This document shows positions 14,042-23,246 of a stretch of DNA of 27,125 bases, in pieces; the first letter of the stretch is position 1, and each line of letters opens with the position of its first letter. Location: positions 1 to 27,125 of IMG/VR virus record IMGVR_UViG_3300032236_001403, one strand, 5' to 3'. Made by a program: the position numbers and the translations under genes. The notes under the pieces were generated by a model. That model searched no databases. It was not told the DNA's origin and worked only from the letters and a program-made list of their open reading frames with translations. The DNA is from a virus.

Positions 14042-14224
14042 TCACGGGGCCAGATCGGCTTCCATGATTGCCTGCTGATACTCAGCAGCGGATGCTATTT
14101 CGACTTTTAGACCTGCCATAGCAACGAGCAGTTCATTCAAAGTCCACCCATCACGTAGCATAGCCATTACGTGAGTACGTAGCAATTCTTGGCAGGCGGC
14201 AGGGCTTACAGTTGTAGGAGCCAT
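14042..14224 (-). CDS. small hypothetical protein, last gene of the - strand operon
   Basis: A 60-residue protein with ATG at 14224, overlapping the thymidylate-synthase-like gene by 19 bases, and with a weak ribosome binding site. It is helical, with L-R-T-H-V-M-A-M-L-R-D-G-W-T-L-N-E-L-L and a second Ala-rich helix; the first part has the look of a small helix-turn-helix or of a swapped helical dimer. No family is recognised. Its stop codon touches the stop of the opposite operon with no spacing, which supports both ends being real. Confidence 0.6.
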   Translation of the reverse strand: MAPTTVSPAACQELLRTHVMAMLRDGWTLNELLVAMAGLKVEIASAAEYQQAIMEADLAP

Positions 14225-14991
14225 TTCGAAAACTCAAAGGTTGGGTTGACGGATTTTGCCATAATATTATGCGCTTCATAGCGGCGGATCAATGGCGGCT
14301 TGTCTGCAATTGGAATGTGCTTGTTTTTAGTTAGTATTTCGTGGAACATGTCAATGCGAGACATGTAAACATGGAAAGATCCGACTGAGATCGTTAAGGT
14401 ACCAATTTGGGCATTCAATAGAGTTGCCACGATCTCCTGCAAGAAGCTGAACGTAGGCAAGTCATTTGCCATACCCCATAGAATATCTTGGCTGCGCATC
14501 ACAACGCGGGTGTTTAGCGTACCTTCACGCAATCTGAATTCAATGCAGGTCGTACAAGGTACATCCTTGGCATCCAAGTCCATGTGGTCGGCATCGGTGC
14601 CGTACATAGGAATGACCGCCCGGCGGCTCATCGGGTCTTTTTGCAATAGCATCACAATTCGTTGAATGCCATACTTGCCAAACCAGTAAGAGCCATAATT
14701 GCTATTGAGCTTGCCATTCAATACGATCTTACCCCACTGGGCTGCATGCTCTGCAATGCTGGTATCAAATGGGTCTGCCTTGATATACCAGGCCATCTCA
14801 CGCTTAAGATAGCTGAGATTGAACTTACGGCCTTCAAAGGAGTTAAACCTGACAAAGGGGCCTACACTATAGGTGAAGTTTTCAATTTCTAATGTTGATT
14901 CTCCTCTTGGATTTGAAGGATCACCTGCATCATGTAGTGCCTGATAGATCTGAATTAGATCTGCCTCTTTATAAATCGTTGCCAATTCCAT
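14206..14991 (-). CDS. thymidylate synthase-family protein, probable dCMP (hydroxy)methyltransferase
   Basis: A 261-residue thymidylate synthase homologue. The start at ATG 14991, behind a GAGG site and overlapping the kinase gene by 23 bases, is preferred to a start 37 codons upstream. With this start the active-site residues fall at the E. coli ThyA numbers: Cys146 in V-P-C, Arg166 and Ser167 in M-R-S, Asp169, His207 and Tyr209 in G-S-F-H-V-Y, and Arg123/Arg124 in S-R-R. The key difference is Asp177 (G-M-A-N-D-L) where ThyA has Asn177. Asn-to-Asp at this position marks dCMP-specific enzymes such as T4 dCMP hydroxymethylase. The product may thus be 5-methyl or 5-hydroxymethyl dCMP. A plain thymidylate synthase remains possible. 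Confidence 0.85.
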   Translation of the reverse strand: MELATIYKEADLIQIYQALHDAGDPSNPRGESTLEIENFTYSVGPFVRFNSFEGRKFNLSYLKREMAWYIKADPFDTSIAEHAAQWGKIVLNGKLNSNYGSYWFGKYGIQRIVMLLQKDPMSRRAVIPMYGTDADHMDLDAKDVPCTTCIEFRLREGTLNTRVVMRSQDILWGMANDLPTFSFLQEIVATLLNAQIGTLTISVGSFHVYMSRIDMFHEILTKNKHIPIADKPPLIRRYEAHNIMAKSVNPTFEFSKWLLQL

Positions 14992-15907
14992 AGTCAGCCT
15001 CAAGGATGTGATAGGGTTGGTTGGGGTAGTTTTGCATGTGATAGAGAGGGGGCGGCAGCTTGATGGCTCGAACGCCATTTTGATACGCCCACGTGTAGGC
15101 ATTATTGCCTAGTGCAAAGATCTGACGTGGCCTTAGCCGGCGGATGAATTCCGGATTGGTAGGCCTACCATCATGTGATTGCGTGTTGATCCAATAAATG
15201 TCGTTCTCCGATATACCCTCCTTTTCAAAAGTCATTGCCAGCATACGGCTTGGGCCGTCATCATCTAGGAAATTGATAAAAGGCACCACGGCTGCGGAAG
15301 GCCTTATATTGGCCCTGGGGCCCTTATCGCAAAGCATAAGGATAACCCCTTCCTTAAAGCATCCACCACCTCCAGCACCATTCTGGATGGACTTAGACCG
15401 GATGCCAGTAAGGACCTCATCAAAGCTATCGGTTTCATAGTCATAATGGACTATGGGCAGTTCAGTACGTAGGCCTAGAGTTTCATATTCATCGTAGACC
15501 TGACGTAGCTGCGTTAGATCATCCAGGTATTCCTCATCTTTACGGGCCATGAATGCATTGGCACAAGCTTCAAAGCTAGGCTGGCAGTGTATAACTACCC
15601 CACCACGTGATAAGGCAACACGTTCCAGCATGCGCCGTCTAGGCAGATCAACGCGTATATCACCATTGCGGTATATCGCGCCATAGATCGGCTCCGATAG
15701 CCATGACCTATCCATAATGACAGTGTCATTGAAGGTCAATGCAGGCGTCATGCTACGGAAGAATGTCTTGCATAAAGCTTCCGGTGGCATGTTGGGATAC
15801 GGGCCATGGTGGATGGTATGCACCATCTCATCGCCAAAGTGCTGAGCCAGCTGTTTGACTAGCGTGGACTTGCCCGCGCCGTCAGGCCCTTCCAAGATTA
15901 TGATCAT
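14969..15907 (-). CDS. deoxynucleotide kinase-like P-loop protein fused to a UDG-like domain
   Basis: A 312-residue two-domain protein. Residues 1-165 are a P-loop kinase of the thymidylate kinase type: Walker A E6-G-P-D-G-A-G-K-S-T15, then D66-R-S-W-L-S-E-P-I-Y-G, where the D-R pair holds the nucleotide, and a Lys/Arg-rich lid region near 122. A Gly-rich linker (N-G-A-G-G-G-G, 176-182) leads to residues 186-298, which resemble the uracil-DNA-glycosylase superfamily: V-I-L-M-L-C-D-K-G-P-R, P-F-I-N-F, G-P-S, E-K-E-G-I-S-E-N-D-I-Y-W-I-N, L-R-P-R-Q-I-F-A-L-G-N-N-A. The usual H-P-S end motif appears altered (P-P-L-Y-H). It overlaps both neighbours. The kinase could raise modified dNMPs to diphosphates; the second domain could bind the modified base. 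The fold call for residues 186-298 is inference. Confidence 0.75.
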   Translation of the reverse strand: MIIILEGPDGAGKSTLVKQLAQHFGDEMVHTIHHGPYPNMPPEALCKTFFRSMTPALTFNDTVIMDRSWLSEPIYGAIYRNGDIRVDLPRRRMLERVALSRGGVVIHCQPSFEACANAFMARKDEEYLDDLTQLRQVYDEYETLGLRTELPIVHYDYETDSFDEVLTGIRSKSIQNGAGGGGCFKEGVILMLCDKGPRANIRPSAAVVPFINFLDDDGPSRMLAMTFEKEGISENDIYWINTQSHDGRPTNPEFIRRLRPRQIFALGNNAYTWAYQNGVRAIKLPPPLYHMQNYPNQPYHILEADYGIGNDL

Positions 15908-16796
15908 GTGTATAGCTTTCTAAATCATAGAGTGTTTTTTCAATCGGCGCAGTCTTAAGGCTTAATGCCTGTGCTGTCGCAATCATCTGCAACTGCTCGC
16001 GGTCAAAGCCTTCCAGCCCACGTAATGTAAAGCTATAGGCCGGCCCCATCTCTGCAAATTCCAATGGGTTGCCACCTAATACACAACCTGCGGTGGCAGC
16101 ATGTATGTATCTTACACGCCACCAGCCGCAGCCTGCATGCGCATAGGTCGGGCACAGTACACCGATATACTCGCCGTATTCCCAAACTATGTCATGCTCC
16201 AGTTTCCGAGGCTGCCCCAAAGCCTTACCACCTATGGAGTGCACAGGCCAGGTAAGGTTTTGAGACGTTGCCCAGTTGTGTGCATCACTCGATAAACTGG
16301 CGTTATACCAAGCCATCTTACGTTTGCCCCATTGCATGGCATGCGTAGGAGGTGGTACGTAAAGCGGTGATGGGTCCCAGGCCTTGATCTTTGGAATAGG
16401 CAGCTGCATCTTTTGGATGTTGCCCCATGGAAAGAGGGGCGCCAGCCAAACGTGCTTTTGCAATTCATCCAAGGGTAGCTTATCTTGCCATGATGGGATG
16501 ATCTTTTGGAAGGCCCAATCATCAAGGCAGATGTAGGCATCCGGCCTGCTGGTCAATGTATAGATGGCACCATCAGGATGCAGTGCATTGCCATCCAAGG
16601 GGTACAAGTATACGAAGACCACATCATATGCACTCAAATCCTCCCCAGGCATTACGGCCCGGTGATCTACCTTATGCCCCAGATGCTGAAGCCCTTCCCG
16701 CATAAGCTCGGGAATGGAAACAAACTTCGTGGATGAGGCACGATCAGGATGATTTGTGTGCGTCTCGGTAACGCCAGTTACGAGTATAGTTTTCAT
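15882..16796 (-). CDS. glycosyltransferase-like protein, possible DNA base glycosyltransferase
   Basis: A 304-residue protein with a GT-B-like order: an N-terminal Rossmann-like half (M-K-T-I-L-V-T-G-V-T; then G-L-Q-H-L-G-H-K-V-D and D-V-V-F-V-Y-L-Y) and a C-terminal half with Y-G-E-Y-I-G-V-L then a conserved-looking core G-C-G-W-W-R-V-R-Y-I-H-A-A-T-A-G-C-V-L-G-G (222-242) followed by E-F and Y-S-F. The last part recalls the sugar-nucleotide-binding region of phage glycosyltransferases. The gene overlaps the kinase-fusion gene by 26 bases and starts in an ATGA overlap with the small gene before it. Position beside a dCMP-type synthase suggests that its acceptor is a modified base in phage DNA; that is inference, and no close relative can be named from sequence alone. 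Confidence 0.55.
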   Translation of the reverse strand: MKTILVTGVTETHTNHPDRASSTKFVSIPELMREGLQHLGHKVDHRAVMPGEDLSAYDVVFVYLYPLDGNALHPDGAIYTLTSRPDAYICLDDWAFQKIIPSWQDKLPLDELQKHVWLAPLFPWGNIQKMQLPIPKIKAWDPSPLYVPPPTHAMQWGKRKMAWYNASLSSDAHNWATSQNLTWPVHSIGGKALGQPRKLEHDIVWEYGEYIGVLCPTYAHAGCGWWRVRYIHAATAGCVLGGNPLEFAEMGPAYSFTLRGLEGFDREQLQMIATAQALSLKTAPIEKTLYDLESYTHDHNLGRA

Positions 16797-17011
16797 TCTG
16801 GCATTTGCACTTCAATATAGCCATGGGCTGCATCGTACGACACATCGGTTGAGCGACCACCCTTGGCGATGTAGTCAGCAATGGTCATACCGGGCTGATA
16901 CAGTGCAAAACGGGTGAATGCCAGCGTGTTGGCACGCTTAGGATTTTGCTCAACCACACGAGAGATGATACCTGCGGTGTTGATACGAGTACGTTTAGCT
17001 TTGGTCGACAT
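16793..17011 (-). CDS. small conserved phage protein of unknown function
   Basis: A 72-residue basic protein. ATG 17011 is preferred: it follows AAGGA by nine bases and overlaps the helicase stop by 17 bases. Motifs N-P-K-R-A-N-T-L-A-F-T-R-F-A-L-Y and G-M-T-I-A-D-Y-I-A-K-G-G, followed by D-A-A-H-G-Y-I, recur in small phage proteins I know that sit among replication genes; they have no assigned function. The basic N-terminus followed by a helix-turn-like middle would fit DNA binding, which is inference. Its stop overlaps the glycosyltransferase-like start by 4 bases. Confidence 0.75.
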   Translation of the reverse strand: MSTKAKRTRINTAGIISRVVEQNPKRANTLAFTRFALYQPGMTIADYIAKGGRSTDVSYDAAHGYIEVQMPE

Positions 17012-18413
17012 GTTCAAGTTCCTTAAGAAGTGTTGTGACACTCATCGTATCACGGTTTATGTAGTCACGCACAGCATTTAACAGACTTTGTTGAGTCTTG
17101 TTTTTGCGCCTGACGGCTATCATAATGGCCTCATCCACGGTATCCTTTGCGATGATGTGGTGAACCATTATGCGGTTCCTCTGACCTTGCCGCCAGAGCC
17201 TACGAATGAACTGCTCGTAAACTTCCAGTGACCAGGTCAGAGAATACCAAATGACCGCGTGGCCAGAACCTTGTAGGTTAAGTCCATGGCCGGCGGACAT
17301 CGGGTGGGCTAGGAGCACTGGGATTCTACCCAGGTTCCAAGTATCGATAATCAATTGCAGTGCATCCCCGGTTACGCCTGAGCCGATGACCGGCGCGTTA
17401 GGAAATGCTTTTCGCAATCTTTCCAGATCGTGCTGGAAATGGTAGCCTATGATGCAGGGCTGGCCGGAAAGTTCTTCAACCAACTCAAGTACAGCCTCGG
17501 TCTTGGCATCATGGATATGGATGGATTGTCTTTCCAAGCCGTCCAAGTAGGATCCACCATTGGCAATTTGTTGGCCTTTCATCACAGCCACGGCGGCGTT
17601 GGCAGCCGTGATGTCGCCTTGATCCAAACTGATGGTCAGGCCTTTTTCAAAAGTATCGTAAACTTTCTTGGCTGCAGGCGGTAGTTCAACGTAAACGTTG
17701 TTGTAGATCAGTTCAGGCAGATCAAGATAATCCAACGCAGCCATGCGCAGGACTTTGCCTTCCAACTTGGCGTGAATACGCGCCTCACCATCGGGCAGTA
17801 GCCGCCAGTCGTAGCCACCAAAACCTGCGGGGTAGAAATAGGTGGTCCTGAAATTTGAAATGTAAGGCCCAAACGTGGCCCCCTGGTCAATTACATACTG
17901 CGGTCCAAAGATATCCAATAGGCTATTAGGCGCAGGTGATCCAGTGAGGCCCCAGATGCGGCCAAACTTGCTTAGCAAGGGCTTCAGGGTTTTGAATCGC
18001 TGTGTTTGTGTATTCTTAAGGTATGAGATCTCATCGGCCACGAGGATGTCAAATGGCCAAGGCTTACGTGCCAGCTTGGTTGCCAGCCAGTTAATGCCTT
18101 CGTAGTTTATAACGTAAATATCATGTGGCGTATTAAGTACTTTTTCCTTCTTTCCACCATGCAGGATGCCTACGGATAGGTGTTGGAATTGCTCCCACTT
18201 CTTAACCTCGGTAGGCCACACACCATAAGCAGGTCGCAATGGTGCAATAACCAGTGTACGTACTGGCTTTTGATTTTTACTACGAAGCCATTGCAATGCG
18301 GACAGAACGATCGCCGTTTTACCAAGACCAGGGTCAAGCCATAGTGAGCCTGAGCCTGTTTCCAACAGAAACTTAACGGCTTTCTTCTGATACTCGTGAG
18401 GTTCCCAGAACAT
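16995..18413 (-). CDS. SNF2-type superfamily 2 helicase
   Basis: A 472-residue ATP-driven DNA translocase. Visible motifs: Q-motif-like H-E-Y-Q near residue 6, Walker A D27-P-G-L-G-K-T-A, motif Ia around V-I-A-P-L-R (55-60), Walker B D127-E-I-S, motif III L-T-G-S-P-A-P-N (156-163), motif V P-M-S-A-G-H-G-L-N-L-Q, and motif VI Q-F-I-R-R-L-W-R-Q-G-Q (401-411). This order is that of the compact SNF2-like helicases common in phage replication modules. Start ATG 18413 follows AAGGAAGG at good spacing. The gene overlaps the VRR-NUC gene by 32 bases. It may load or move replication proteins or remodel DNA during recombination; no separate DnaB-like helicase or primase is visible in the window. Confidence 0.92.
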   Translation of the reverse strand: MFWEPHEYQKKAVKFLLETGSGSLWLDPGLGKTAIVLSALQWLRSKNQKPVRTLVIAPLRPAYGVWPTEVKKWEQFQHLSVGILHGGKKEKVLNTPHDIYVINYEGINWLATKLARKPWPFDILVADEISYLKNTQTQRFKTLKPLLSKFGRIWGLTGSPAPNSLLDIFGPQYVIDQGATFGPYISNFRTTYFYPAGFGGYDWRLLPDGEARIHAKLEGKVLRMAALDYLDLPELIYNNVYVELPPAAKKVYDTFEKGLTISLDQGDITAANAAVAVMKGQQIANGGSYLDGLERQSIHIHDAKTEAVLELVEELSGQPCIIGYHFQHDLERLRKAFPNAPVIGSGVTGDALQLIIDTWNLGRIPVLLAHPMSAGHGLNLQGSGHAVIWYSLTWSLEVYEQFIRRLWRQGQRNRIMVHHIIAKDTVDEAIMIAVRRKNKTQQSLLNAVRDYINRDTMSVTTLLKELEHVDQS

Positions 18414-18681: not shown

Positions 18682-19310
18682 TTGCAAGGCCCGCCATTGT
18701 CTTTATGAAAGTGACACCACCGGCAGTTGTAACTTGGCCGTGGCGCAAAGATGCTATCACCTTCAATGGCCTTGATGCGACCTTCAACCCAGGTTTTGAG
18801 ATCCTCAAACTGCGAGCGATCATAGCTTGGGTAAGCACCAATCTTGTTGAGATCTGAGTAGATGATTTCACAATCCACAGTTTCTACCGCCGGTATAACT
18901 GCCATGATCATTGTGGCATACAGTTTTAACTGATCACCATATTCACGTTCTTTGCCGGTTTTGTAGTCGGCAACGTAGGCTTTACTACCATCAATGGTAA
19001 AGACATCCAGTACACCACGAAGCCATACGTCCTTGGCATTGAAAGCCACCGGCTGCCATGCACGGTTTAAGCCAATTTCGTATTCTGCCTTGACTGCCTT
19101 GGTCTTTAAGGTGTTGATGTAGTCGGCCCAATATGAAATATCCGGAGTCATCAACCCCAGACCAACCACAGCATCTTCAAACTCGGCATGGATACGCTTA
19201 CCACGTTCTGCAGCCGGGCCGGTAGGCTCAGACATGTGATCGATGCGGGTAAGTTTGTACTTAAGCGGGCAATCTTCGTAGGTCTTAATACTGGAATGTG
19301 AGTAGCTCAT
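18675..19310 (-). CDS. RecB/Cas4-like PD-(D/E)XK exonuclease with probable iron-sulfur cluster
   Basis: A 211-residue nuclease. It opens with S-H-S-S-I-K-T-Y-E-D-C14-P-L-K-Y, the start typical of RecB-like and Cas4-like nucleases. The catalytic set is visible: H41 in G-K-R-I-H, D102 in G-V-L-D-V-F, D115-Y-K117 in V-A-D-Y-K-T-G-K, and Q127-L-K-L-Y. Cys14 together with Cys196, Cys199 and Cys209 makes the four-cysteine pattern that binds a 4Fe-4S cluster in Cas4 and AddB. It probably resects DNA ends in phage recombination or replication. It overlaps DNA polymerase by 4 bases and VRR-NUC by 7. No CRISPR array is near, so a Cas4 role in adaptation is unlikely. Confidence 0.9.
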   Translation of the reverse strand: MSYSHSSIKTYEDCPLKYKLTRIDHMSEPTGPAAERGKRIHAEFEDAVVGLGLMTPDISYWADYINTLKTKAVKAEYEIGLNRAWQPVAFNAKDVWLRGVLDVFTIDGSKAYVADYKTGKEREYGDQLKLYATMIMAVIPAVETVDCEIIYSDLNKIGAYPSYDRSQFEDLKTWVEGRIKAIEGDSIFAPRPSYNCRWCHFHKDNGGPCKW

Positions 19311-21124
19311 TTGGTATCCTGGTAAGTATTCCCGACCTTGTAATCACTAACCATTGGTACGTCCATATCCAAAGCGTTGCACATGGACCAGGTTAGGCAT
19401 TCAGCCTCACGTTCAATAGCATCTTCCGGTGCGCTGATAACCAGCTCATCATGCACACTAAGCAGTAACCTACTGCCTTGCCGCTTTTGCTGATATAACA
19501 GCATTGCAGCCTTGGCCTGATCGGCTGCTGAACCTTGAATCAAAAGGTTAACCCCCTTGTAGTCAAACTCACGCAGTCTGCCCATAACTACCTTAGGCGG
19601 TTCCATCTTAACCAACCGGCCGCCTAGGGTTTTAATAGGCTCATTCAGTTTATAACGGGTACGCATGGTGGCCTGCATGCTTTTCAACCCCGGCGCCACA
19701 GCAGATGTATAGGCATCCATCAGTGTTTTGGCCAGTTCATAATCGATCTCCAGCATCTCGGAGATTTTCTTAGGCCCGGCGCCATACAGAATGGCAAAGC
19801 TTACGCCTTTACTATAGGTCCGAGATACCTCACGGCCGGAAGCCTCGGTCATCATCTTAGCGGCGTAGGTATGCAAATCAGCACGGGCATCGGCCTGATA
19901 CTGACGCATAAGATTGCCACCTTCAAAGTGGGCAAAGATACGTAGCTCCTGAGCATTGAAATCACATGCCACCAGCTTATGGCCTTCATCGGCCAGGATG
20001 AATGACCTTATAAGAGGCAAGGGGGCCACAGGAAGATCTGATGGTAGGTTTACCTTAGGATACCGGATGGGGGCATTCTGGAAGTTTGGAGTGCTACTGA
20101 GCCTGCCTGTCCGAGTGCCGCCACGTTCACCCCGCACAGAGTTCCAATTGGTGTAGATCCTACCGGTCTCGGCACTGGCCTCGAGCCATGGAGTAATGAA
20201 GGTGCTTAAGCAAGTTGAGAGGTTAGCTCGGTAACGTAGAACATCCTTCAGGTACGGATGGATAAGCATTTCCTCAAAGGCTTCCTTATCGGCCTTGAGT
20301 TGCCCCTTATCCGTGGTAGGCCAGGATTTATTTTTATCCCAGTACTCGGTCTGATAAATACTTTGGACCAGCTGATCATCGCTGTCCACATTCAAATCAG
20401 GAGACCCTAACAATGAACGGACCCAGACATTACAGTGCTCAATATCTACTTCTGCTTGCTGCTTTGCTTTACTCAGGCCTTCACCATCAACCCTTACCCC
20501 TAGTCTTGAGTTTTCAAGCAACATGGGGATTAGAGCAATCTCACGAGCATAAGCCACTGACTGCGCCGGCAAAACCTTTGGCAGCAGGTGCTCGTAAAGC
20601 AAAGAGGTAAGCCTTACATCGGCCTCGGCATACCGGCCAACCAAGGCTGCTGGGCCTAGGCTAATGTAGGCGCCCCAGGTAGATTTCTTTTTCTTTGCAG
20701 CCGGTACGTGAGTAACAACCCACTCCTTCAGCTCATCACGCTCGCTAGGCTCTGCCAGATTCCAGGTGACGACAAGATCTTTAAGAGATAATGAGCGAAC
20801 GTGGGGATCATGTAGAAAAGCAAGAATAAGAGTATCATGAACACGGGCCGATTGAGGAATAGCGAGACCAAAGTGAGTATCAATAACATCAAGATCAAAC
20901 ATAGCATTATGGAAGCAAATGCTACGAGACCCAGAGTAAATGTCCACAAGGATTTTGTGAACGTCGGCTTTGGTGGTTGTGTTGCCATTGAGATGCCCGA
21001 AGGCATGGTAACCATTGGGGTATTGTCCTTCGGGGTCATAGATGGCCAGTCCTACCGGTTGTGGCGGGTATTTAGGGCGGGCCTCAATGCCCTCGGTCTC
21101 AAAGTCAAGGAATATGGGTTTCAT
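19307..21124 (-). CDS. family A DNA polymerase with 3'-5' exonuclease
   Basis: A 605-residue replicative polymerase of the Pol I/T7 type. Exonuclease: D7-F-E9, N73 and D77 in F-H-N-A-M-F-D, and Y165-A-E-A-D169, so proofreading should be active. Polymerase: G-R-L-S-S-T-P-N-F-Q-N-A-P-I-R (340-354), motif A D388-F-N-A-Q-E-L-R, motif B R435-T-Y-S-K439-G-V-S-F443-A-I-L-Y447-G, and motif C V-H558-D559-E560. The Phe in motif B, rather than the Tyr of T7, predicts discrimination against dideoxynucleotides. There is no 5'-3' exonuclease domain, as usual for phages. The ribosome binding site is weak; AAGGTAAG lies about 24 bases upstream of ATG 21124. Close spacing suggests co-transcription with the ssDNA-binding candidate before it. 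Confidence 0.96.
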   Translation of the reverse strand: MKPIFLDFETEGIEARPKYPPQPVGLAIYDPEGQYPNGYHAFGHLNGNTTTKADVHKILVDIYSGSRSICFHNAMFDLDVIDTHFGLAIPQSARVHDTLILAFLHDPHVRSLSLKDLVVTWNLAEPSERDELKEWVVTHVPAAKKKKSTWGAYISLGPAALVGRYAEADVRLTSLLYEHLLPKVLPAQSVAYAREIALIPMLLENSRLGVRVDGEGLSKAKQQAEVDIEHCNVWVRSLLGSPDLNVDSDDQLVQSIYQTEYWDKNKSWPTTDKGQLKADKEAFEEMLIHPYLKDVLRYRANLSTCLSTFITPWLEASAETGRIYTNWNSVRGERGGTRTGRLSSTPNFQNAPIRYPKVNLPSDLPVAPLPLIRSFILADEGHKLVACDFNAQELRIFAHFEGGNLMRQYQADARADLHTYAAKMMTEASGREVSRTYSKGVSFAILYGAGPKKISEMLEIDYELAKTLMDAYTSAVAPGLKSMQATMRTRYKLNEPIKTLGGRLVKMEPPKVVMGRLREFDYKGVNLLIQGSAADQAKAAMLLYQQKRQGSRLLLSVHDELVISAPEDAIEREAECLTWSMCNALDMDVPMVSDYKVGNTYQDTK

Positions 21125-21943: not shown

Positions 21944-22309
21944 TTACTTACGACGAACGCTTAATTCCCAGACCGGGGTCATCTTGGTTCCCGGTATGGT
22001 TTCACCTGCATCCCAGCGCTCACGAAATACAGTTGATGAGAGCCGCTTGTGTAACAGCTCAAATTGCTTGGTCTCGGCAACATACGAATAAAAAGCATTC
22101 CAATCTACAATAGATGGCGATGGCGTTGACTTCATAAAGCACGTGGCTTTATCAGAGCCTGCCTGCGAGATGCCTGCGTTGGACATTTGCTCCATGATGT
22201 CGGCCTCGATCTTGGCCAGGTCCTCATTGCAGGTCTTGATCTCGGATGCCAAGGATTCCTTACGCGCCTTGATGTCGACAAACTTATTGATCAGGTCATT
22301 GATATTCAT
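21944..22309 (-). CDS. conserved phage protein, coiled-coil N-terminus
   Basis: A 121-residue protein. ATG 22309, in an ATGA overlap with the MazG-like gene, is preferred to an upstream in-frame start. Residues 1-45 are a charged coiled coil (L-I-N-K-F-V-D-I-K-A-R-K-E-S-L), followed by a beta part and W-N-A-F-Y-S-Y-V, F-E-L-L-H-K-R-L-S. The whole pattern, coiled coil then W-x-x-F then E-L-L-x-x-R, recalls a common phage protein found beside replication genes, often unannotated; some relatives may be distantly like Gam-type nuclease inhibitors, but that link is weak. No function is assigned. Confidence 0.75.
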   Translation of the reverse strand: MNINDLINKFVDIKARKESLASEIKTCNEDLAKIEADIMEQMSNAGISQAGSDKATCFMKSTPSPSIVDWNAFYSYVAETKQFELLHKRLSSTVFRERWDAGETIPGTKMTPVWELSVRRK

Positions 22310-22722
22310 ACACCATTCGCCTTCTGTTGCGCACGCCACCGAGCCTCAAGGATATGGACCTCAATCAGAGGCTCTGGAGGTTGCCACCCATCAGGCTTAA
22401 TGACATCATAGGTCTTTCCTCGAGCCGATCTCCTAGCCTCACTGGCAGGTACCTTGGCCATATTGCATTCATGGACCACGTCAAAGATTCCATCAAATGG
22501 CAGCCCCATGGCATGGGCACAACCTAAGGTGACGTAGACCAGATCGGTCAGGGCATCGGCGCAGTCAATCAGATTCTGCTCCTCATGCGCTTTGAGGAAC
22601 TCACTAAGCTCCTCCATAATAAACCGCGCAAAGTATGAAGCATCTTCGGGCTTAAGGAGGCCGGGTTTTTCAGCGACGGGTAAACCCATCTTTTGGCGAA
22701 ATTCAAGAACTTTGTCATACAT
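22306..22722 (-). CDS. MazG-like all-alpha nucleotide pyrophosphohydrolase
   Basis: A 138-residue protein of the MazG / phosphoribosyl-ATP pyrophosphohydrolase superfamily, which splits NTPs or dNTPs to monophosphates and pyrophosphate. The metal site is visible: E37-E38-L-S-E41 on one helix and D53-x-x-D56-x-x-x-D60 on the next, followed by the family phrase D-L-V-Y-V-T-L-G and later E-C-N-M-A-K-V. The start at ATG 22722 overlaps the preceding TAA and follows GAGG. In several phages such enzymes cleanse the dNTP pool of a canonical nucleotide in favour of a modified one; here that would fit the base-modification genes at 14206-16796. Substrate is not readable from the sequence. The Z-genome partner PurZ is not seen. 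Confidence 0.87.
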   Translation of the reverse strand: MYDKVLEFRQKMGLPVAEKPGLLKPEDASYFARFIMEELSEFLKAHEEQNLIDCADALTDLVYVTLGCAHAMGLPFDGIFDVVHECNMAKVPASEARRSARGKTYDVIKPDGWQPPEPLIEVHILEARWRAQQKANGV

Positions 22723-23246
22723 TATGCTGCCTCTTTGCAAGAGTTGTTGAAGTCGAGCCAGTCTTGCAGCCATGGTGGTGGTTGACGGCGGCCGCGGCTG
22801 TAAACCATAGGCATATACGCTGCTTTGCTGGCATAGTAGCGACGGTAGGATTCGATATGGTCATCGGATTTGAATTCGTCAGGCATTGCCAGGGTAGGTG
22901 GACGCCAGGTGAGGGGCATGTCGAACATGGCAGGCGGAGCAACAAGCAGCTGGTCGACTAAGACAGCATGTGACTTGTGGTGCTTACCATAACGTGCCCA
23001 GAATTCGTGTGCTAAGCCGCGTGCCAGCTGTACAAGGTAGTCGTAGTGAAGGCGGGATTCGCGAACCCAGATGGCGCTGGGATGGTTTTTGTGCGTGGCC
23101 TTGTAGGTTACCTTGTCACCATTGCTATAGTGATGGTGGGCAGTGGCCAGGAGTTGGCAGGATTCGATAAGCATTTTGCCGACATGCTTATCACAGTGCA
23201 TGCCTGCCGCAACCATACCGTTCCAGTGGAGATAGAAGATGTTCAT
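22722..23246 (-). CDS. conserved phage protein, possible pyrimidine-dimer glycosylase relative
   Basis: A 174-residue His- and Tyr-rich protein. ATG 23246 follows AAAGGTAA. Motifs: M-N-I-F-Y-L at the start, M-H-C-D-K-H-V-G-K-M-L-I-E-S-C-Q-L-L (about 16-33), H-K-N-H-P-S-A-I-W-V-R-E-S (about 51-63) and E-F-W-A-R-Y-G-K-H-H-K-S. The D-K-x-x-G-K-x-x-x-E-x-x-x-(I/L)-L pattern with a later N-H-P-x-x-x-W resembles proteins placed in the pyrimidine-dimer DNA glycosylase family (PF03013). If so it would repair UV damage, or act on modified bases. The likeness is from memory and the catalytic threonine of T4 endonuclease V is not apparent, so the function is uncertain. It is the first gene behind the promoter at 23284-23312. 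Confidence 0.5.
   Translation of the reverse strand: MNIFYLHWNGMVAAGMHCDKHVGKMLIESCQLLATAHHHYSNGDKVTYKATHKNHPSAIWVRESRLHYDYLVQLARGLAHEFWARYGKHHKSHAVLVDQLLVAPPAMFDMPLTWRPPTLAMPDEFKSDDHIESYRRYYASKAAYMPMVYSRGRRQPPPWLQDWLDFNNSCKEAA

Follow-up and report, generated by a model that had tools for sequence, protein, structure and literature searches.

The 27,125-base IMG/VR record IMGVR_UViG_3300032236_001403, which in its whole length we call the window, derives from a tailed phage and is probably a fragment of its genome. Its minus strand carries, at 14206-16796, three mutually overlapping genes, encoding a homologue of thymidylate synthase (TS), a thymidylate kinase (TMK)-like enzyme fused to a domain of the uracil-DNA glycosylase (UDG) superfamily, and a protein with the GT-B fold of glycosyltransferases (GTs). 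The initial annotation took the three for one unit devoted to DNA base modification. The overlaps, the common strand and the preserved order all agree with this, and the part that requires correction is the start of the TS gene. The order of helicase, an open reading frame (ORF) of 82 amino acids (in most cases), GT, kinase::UDG and TS is kept, by tblastn with the window proteins, in all the IMG/VR loci (L010-L066) that are long enough to show it. The genes are also under purifying selection. Measured against L010, the closest relative whose synonymous sites are not saturated, non-synonymous and synonymous divergences (dN/dS) are 0.021/0.77 for the TS, 0.062/0.58 for the GT, 0.078/1.42 for the kinase domain and 0.040/0.75 for the UDG domain, a ratio of about 0.03-0.11 across the cassette.

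The TS homologue matches Pfam PF00303 (E 3.9e-19) and the PHROG thymidylate synthase family (E 2.7e-34). Its ORF opens at 15102, which is probably 37 residues too long. The proteins of the relatives comprise 260-261 amino acids and start at the equivalent of Met38, and a Shine-Dalgarno-like TTGAGG lies upstream of the Met38 codon (base 14991), so that the gene is likely to be 14206-14991. What nucleotide does this enzyme use? Searched with phmmer against the PDB, the best match of solved structure is the CMP hydroxymethylase MilA of the mildiomycin system (2e-15), followed by the T4 dCMP hydroxymethylase gp42 (3.7e-13), both ranking above the thymidylate synthases that act on dUMP. The catalytic cysteine and an aspartate at the position of E. 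coli Asn177 are present in all 112 TS homologues from related loci, and a threonine follows the cysteine directly (position 147) in 111 of them. Cytosine use is set by Asp179 in the T4 enzyme (PMC6400193) and by Asp186 in MilA (PMC5175136), and positions 147 and 177 best set apart the TSs on modified-cytosine contigs in environmental viromes (PMC8670742). MilA prefers CMP by virtue of Ala176 and Lys133, and deoxyribose use is set by Ser and Arg in their place (PMC5175136). The window enzyme has Ser and Arg in the PDB search alignment (MRS and SRR, against MRA and SKR in MilA), and so is of the deoxy type. Erwinia phage FBB1 provides an internal control, since it contains two TSs, one canonical (PCH...N) and one of dCMP type (CT...D), that are told apart by the motif. 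By these residues the window TS is a cytosine-deoxynucleotide enzyme, and the dCMP-type active site noticed in the initial annotation is upheld both by the PDB ranking and by Asp177 and Thr147 in the homologues. Its predicted product is 5-hydroxymethyl-dCMP (5hm-dCMP).

The third gene (15882-16796, minus strand) belongs to the phrog_14998 family. No Pfam family matches its product, and a profile of 31 members finds nothing among PDB sequences at E<=1. An AlphaFold2 (AF2) model built on related sequences has a pLDDT of 90.9 and pTM of 0.88, and its best fold match is SenB (E 1.8e-6, TM-score 0.61), followed by MurG, LanGT2 and BshA, all of them GT-B enzymes. The model gives the third protein a GT-B fold. 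The initial annotation had called it GT-B-like and had named a prediction of some other fold as the structural half of what would speak against it; the fold predicted is the one proposed. A conserved HAGxGWWRxR motif and a glutamate downstream of it resemble a UDP-sugar binding region and may form one.

The distribution of the GT family provides a pointer to its substrate. BLAST of 50,697 phage records places it in T4-like phages of Aeromonas, Stenotrophomonas and Erwinia, in Gordonia phages, and in DSL-LC01, ctIqW946 and C48C1. A dCMP-type TS accompanies it in Forza, DSL-LC01, ctIqW946, phiAS4, FBB1 and contig L289. C48C1 is the sole complete GT bearer checked that has no TS, and there a Tet_JBP oxygenase gene (Pfam 3.3e-17) lies directly upstream of the GT; this oxygenase family was found in C48C1 only, one of the 11 records tested. 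Hydroxymethyl-dCMP made by a TS-type enzyme and oxidation by a TET enzyme are two independent routes to 5-hydroxymethylcytosine (5hmC). Since the GT family is found with either route, it most likely acts on 5hmC in DNA, an assignment drawn purely from genomic association. In C48C1 the oxygenase, the GT and a UDP-galactopyranose mutase are adjacent (L008:4583-8030), an arrangement that resembles a TET-based operon for 5hmC glycosylation. A weak PHROG match of the gene beside this GT to a queuine tRNA-ribosyltransferase-like protein (DpdA) is set aside in view of the Pfam Tet_JBP match.

A UDP-galactopyranose mutase gene adjoins that of the GT in phiAS4, FBB1, C48C1, DSL-LC01 and contigs L191, L192 and L198, and this adjacency hints at UDP-furanose donors in those phages. 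The pairs in the T4-like dCMP-hydroxymethylase phages phiAS4 (L341:3889-6071) and FBB1 (L368:4937-7062) are examples where the hydroxymethylcytosine sugar may be a furanose. No mutase was found in the seven long relatives of the window in which it was sought, and the donor used by the window enzyme may therefore be a UDP-sugar of the host. In contigs L189-L268 (e.g. L203:9218-10243) a second, diverged GT copy follows the first and precedes MazG, suggesting decoration with two sugars.

The central gene of the cassette (14969-15907, minus strand) encodes the fusion, a predicted 5hm-dCMP kinase. Residues 1-175 (15383-15907) form the kinase domain, matching Pfam Thymidylate_kin (E 7.3e-7) with the P-loop GPDGAGKST and a DR motif (DRSW). 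The AF2 model of the whole protein has a pLDDT of 90.7 and matches the TMK fold. The 50 best fold matches are all kinases with no UDG among them, and thus the assignment of the second domain (residues about 181-312, 14969-15367) rests on sequence profiles. For the window protein alone the match to PF03167 is weak (E 0.0099), with Pfam UDG matches among its relatives reaching 2.6e-6. A profile of the domain run against all PDB sequences at E<=10 retrieves UDGs only (best E 0.03), and the homology to UDG families 4 and 5 is weak but consistent. Both domains are present in 33 of 33 kinase cluster representatives. The DSL-LC01 kinase also has a UDG-like domain, and that of Gordonia phage Forza does not. 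Among the same phage records BLAST with the UDG domain of Stenotrophomonas phage AXL3 finds three distinct phages only.

Does the UDG domain remain a glycosylase? On a less likely view cytosine is modified as discussed below and this domain is catalytically active, excising uracil or unmodified pyrimidines from DNA or nucleotides in repair or quality control; this differs from our own view in the UDG step only. The homology to the UDG superfamily is genuine, and the distant members keep the UDG motifs G[DE], PF, Asn and HP, with the motif-2 histidine in 19 of 20. In the lineage of the window, however, this histidine is proline in 14 of 14 sequences and the motif-1 glycine is cysteine, while the PF and Asn of the pocket are retained. 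The domain is consequently not classed as an active UDG. Yet its dN is far below its dS, showing that it is maintained by selection. Loss of the histidine, retention of the pocket and continued selection fit pyrimidine binding better than glycosylase chemistry, although a conserved histidine close by, at residue 290, could replace the one that is lost. With modest confidence, and as the least certain step of our interpretation, we regard the domain in this lineage as one that binds pyrimidines and selects nucleotides. Thus the fusion described in the initial annotation is real and kept in all the cluster representatives, but the added domain need not be a glycosylase.

Taken together, the cassette probably directs the synthesis of glycosylated 5hmC in the phage DNA. 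The interpretation draws on fold and family assignments, TS residues typical of cytosine and deoxyribose use, the preserved order, purifying selection and the association of the GT with both kinds of 5hmC-making enzyme; each reaction is a prediction, as are the nature of the sugar and the function of the UDG domain. The TS-type enzyme would turn dCMP into 5hm-dCMP, and the kinase domain would phosphorylate this towards the triphosphate. The most likely role of the UDG-fold domain is to bind the pyrimidine and to assist in choosing the modified over the plain nucleotide. A MazG-like enzyme would reduce the pool of canonical dCTP, the family A polymerase of the phage would incorporate the modified base, and lastly the GT-B enzyme would add a sugar to the 5hmC in DNA. 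The MazG gene, which the initial annotation had placed in the same operon, is indeed present and codirectional, lying upstream of the gene for the GT at a distance of about 5.5 kb (22306-22773, minus strand; PF01503, PRA-PH, E 5.3e-16; phrog_671, 4.2e-26), and is a candidate dCTPase. In this form the modified-DNA pathway of the initial annotation is supported by analysis of sequences and predicted folds. A fuller proposition combines an undescribed family of phage DNA GT acting on 5hmC, whether made by TS before replication or by TET after it, with furanose supplied in several lineages by phage UDP-galactopyranose mutase, and with a UDG fold that in the window lineage has lost its glycosylase chemistry and been turned into the substrate gate of a modified-nucleotide kinase. 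We offer that whole only tentatively, and doubt that all of it will hold.

How general is this module? A search suggested by the initial annotation has revealed the whole set, or parts of it, beside MazG and dCMP deaminase genes in further phages. In distant phages kinase::UDG and TS are accompanied by MazG, mostly by dCMP deaminase and often by a methyltransferase, and contig L289 has GT, MazG, kinase::UDG, TS and deaminase together. The kinase::UDG-TS-MazG-deaminase module is found in AXL3 and in Pseudoxanthomonas phage PW916; their fusions are 33-35% identical to that of the window, their TS is of dCMP type, and MazG lies beside the kinase::UDG-TS pair in modules like that of AXL3. These phages differ from the window in having the methyltransferase and the deaminase, and no GT of this family. 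The DNA of AXL3 was cut by two of 37 enzymes, TasI and Tru1I, whose sites are A/T only, and resisted all 35 that have G or C in the site (PMC7504290). This pattern is as cytosine modification would predict, and modification of guanine would look similar. Its authors annotated the homologues as thymidylate metabolism and left the modification unidentified (PMC7504290); a module of the kind described here is a possible explanation. In many modules lacking the GT an S-adenosylmethionine methyltransferase lies beside MazG and kinase::UDG-TS (AXL3 gp31, L001:10602-11426, with homologues in L269-L291), and may be the decorator. The four-gene module also lies on contigs of four metagenome-assembled genomes, of Betaproteobacteria, Lentisphaera, Chromatiales and Gallionella (L357-L360), which are probably phage or prophage and a possible clue to hosts.

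Some alternatives bear on the chemistry itself. The TS might make 5-methyl-dCMP, leading to full replacement of cytosine by 5-methylcytosine (5mC) as assumed for phage XP12, with an unrelated GT that acts, for example, on host surface sugars against superinfection. An Asn177Asp substitution in canonical TS is cited in PMC8670742 as yielding 5mdCMP, and GT-B enzymes are common in modification of surface sugars. Against this, the closest solved relatives of the TS are hydroxymethylases, the GT and kinase genes overlap in the window and are neighbors in every relative of adequate length, and the GT family tracks 5hmC-making enzymes, including the TET/JBP oxygenase where the TS is missing. Moreover, attachment of a sugar needs a hydroxyl group, and 5mC has none. 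We consider this explanation improbable. It is slightly less probable still that the GT gene is an accidental neighbor and that the DNA carries 5hmC alone; the AXL3-like modules do lack this GT, but elsewhere it is adjacent in every adequate relative, recurs with 5hmC genes in unrelated phages and has a low dN/dS. Ordinary supply of dTTP by a TS, a thymidylate kinase and an accessory domain, as in the published AXL3 annotation, is suggested by the family names and by the deaminase beside the TS in distant relatives, but is very unlikely indeed given an aspartate in every homologue where a dUMP enzyme needs asparagine, the failure to find the deaminase in eight relatives of the window, the resistance of AXL3 DNA and a GT left unexplained.

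There are observations that weigh against glycosylated 5hmC as well. Asp177 is also compatible with synthesis of 5-methyl-dCMP. The substrate of the kinase cannot be read from its sequence, so that use of 5hm-dCMP is a prediction, and MazG might act on a dNTP other than dCTP. Those eight relatives, some of which may be fragments, lack the deaminase that usually accompanies the distant modules. In AXL3 the GT family was not found and the methyltransferase takes its place, and therefore AXL3 supports the base-making half only. The C48C1 record contains no PF00145 cytosine methylase that could supply the TET enzyme with substrate. Lastly, we found no published nucleoside chemistry or enzyme assay for this phage or for any holder of the fusion.

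The general kind of system is known from T4 (gp42, gp1, gp56, alpha-gt and beta-gt), with which it shares the logic of a dCMP hydroxymethylase, to which the window TS is related, a nucleotide kinase, removal of dCTP and a GT-B transferase. The structures of the T4 transferases AGT and BGT are in the PDB (PMC6024577), whereas the window GT has no sequence match there and neither AGT nor BGT appears among the fold matches listed for it. The window kinase differs in being TMK-like with a fused UDG domain, and the phage is a compact one with a family A polymerase. Systems making 5-carbamoyloxymethylcytosine (MetaGPA contigs, PMC8670742) likewise combine a dCMP-type TS with MazG/PRA-PH and deaminase, but their decorator is a carbamoyltransferase rather than a GT, and no kinase::UDG is reported or seen there. 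The loci of Xp15 and Acinetobacter phages look alike; their TSs are among the nearest phage relatives of the window enzyme, with carbamoyltransferase genes alongside. We propose, as a testable claim, a shared dCMP-type TS core with swappable decorators: GT, carbamoyltransferase and possibly methyltransferase. RB69, with arabinosyl-hydroxymethylcytosine, and the Thanatos phages, with deoxypentosyl-cytosine, also join a sugar to cytosine with a candidate GT-B transferase (PMC6024577, PMC12838424), but RB69 is not among the BLAST matches of the GT family and the UDP-sugar genes of these phages are not seen in the window. In the literature searched, with most subscription journals outside its coverage, we found no paper on a kinase-UDG fusion or on a set of TS, GT and UDG; nor did we find a description of the GT family, of the fusion or of so compact an arrangement, in agreement with the initial annotation, which knew of no such system.

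Sugar decoration of this kind would shield the viral DNA from the DNA-cutting defences of bacteria. To the armour of phage DNA the analysis would add a Pfam-less GT-B family acting on 5hmC, a role for kinase::UDG in the supply of modified nucleotides and the swapping of decorators on a dCMP-type TS core. New DNA glycosyltransferases could also be useful reagents for the mapping of 5hmC.

In the remainder of the window the plus strand carries the genes for structure and lysis, and the minus strand the replication block. The latter comprises genes for a DUF932 protein, a DNA-binding protein, MazG, a Gp157-like protein, the family A polymerase (19307-21124, PF00476 1.5e-58), an exonuclease, a VRR nuclease, an SNF2 helicase and the 82-amino-acid ORF, and then the GT, kinase::UDG and TS. 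The small ORF (16793-17041) overlaps the start of the GT gene by four bases and is kept next to the cassette in the majority of close relatives; it has no Pfam or PHROG match. A scan for promoters and terminators gave nothing above shuffled sequences. Among ten additional genes of a relative of 57 kb, MazG alone matched a Pfam family. The Gp157 or Mu Gam-like protein (21944-22339; DUF7307, like Pam3 gp33) is conserved between MazG and the polymerase. At 1401-2350 a glycosyl hydrolase 108 endolysin is followed by a holin of the gene-transfer-agent (GTA) type with three transmembrane segments.

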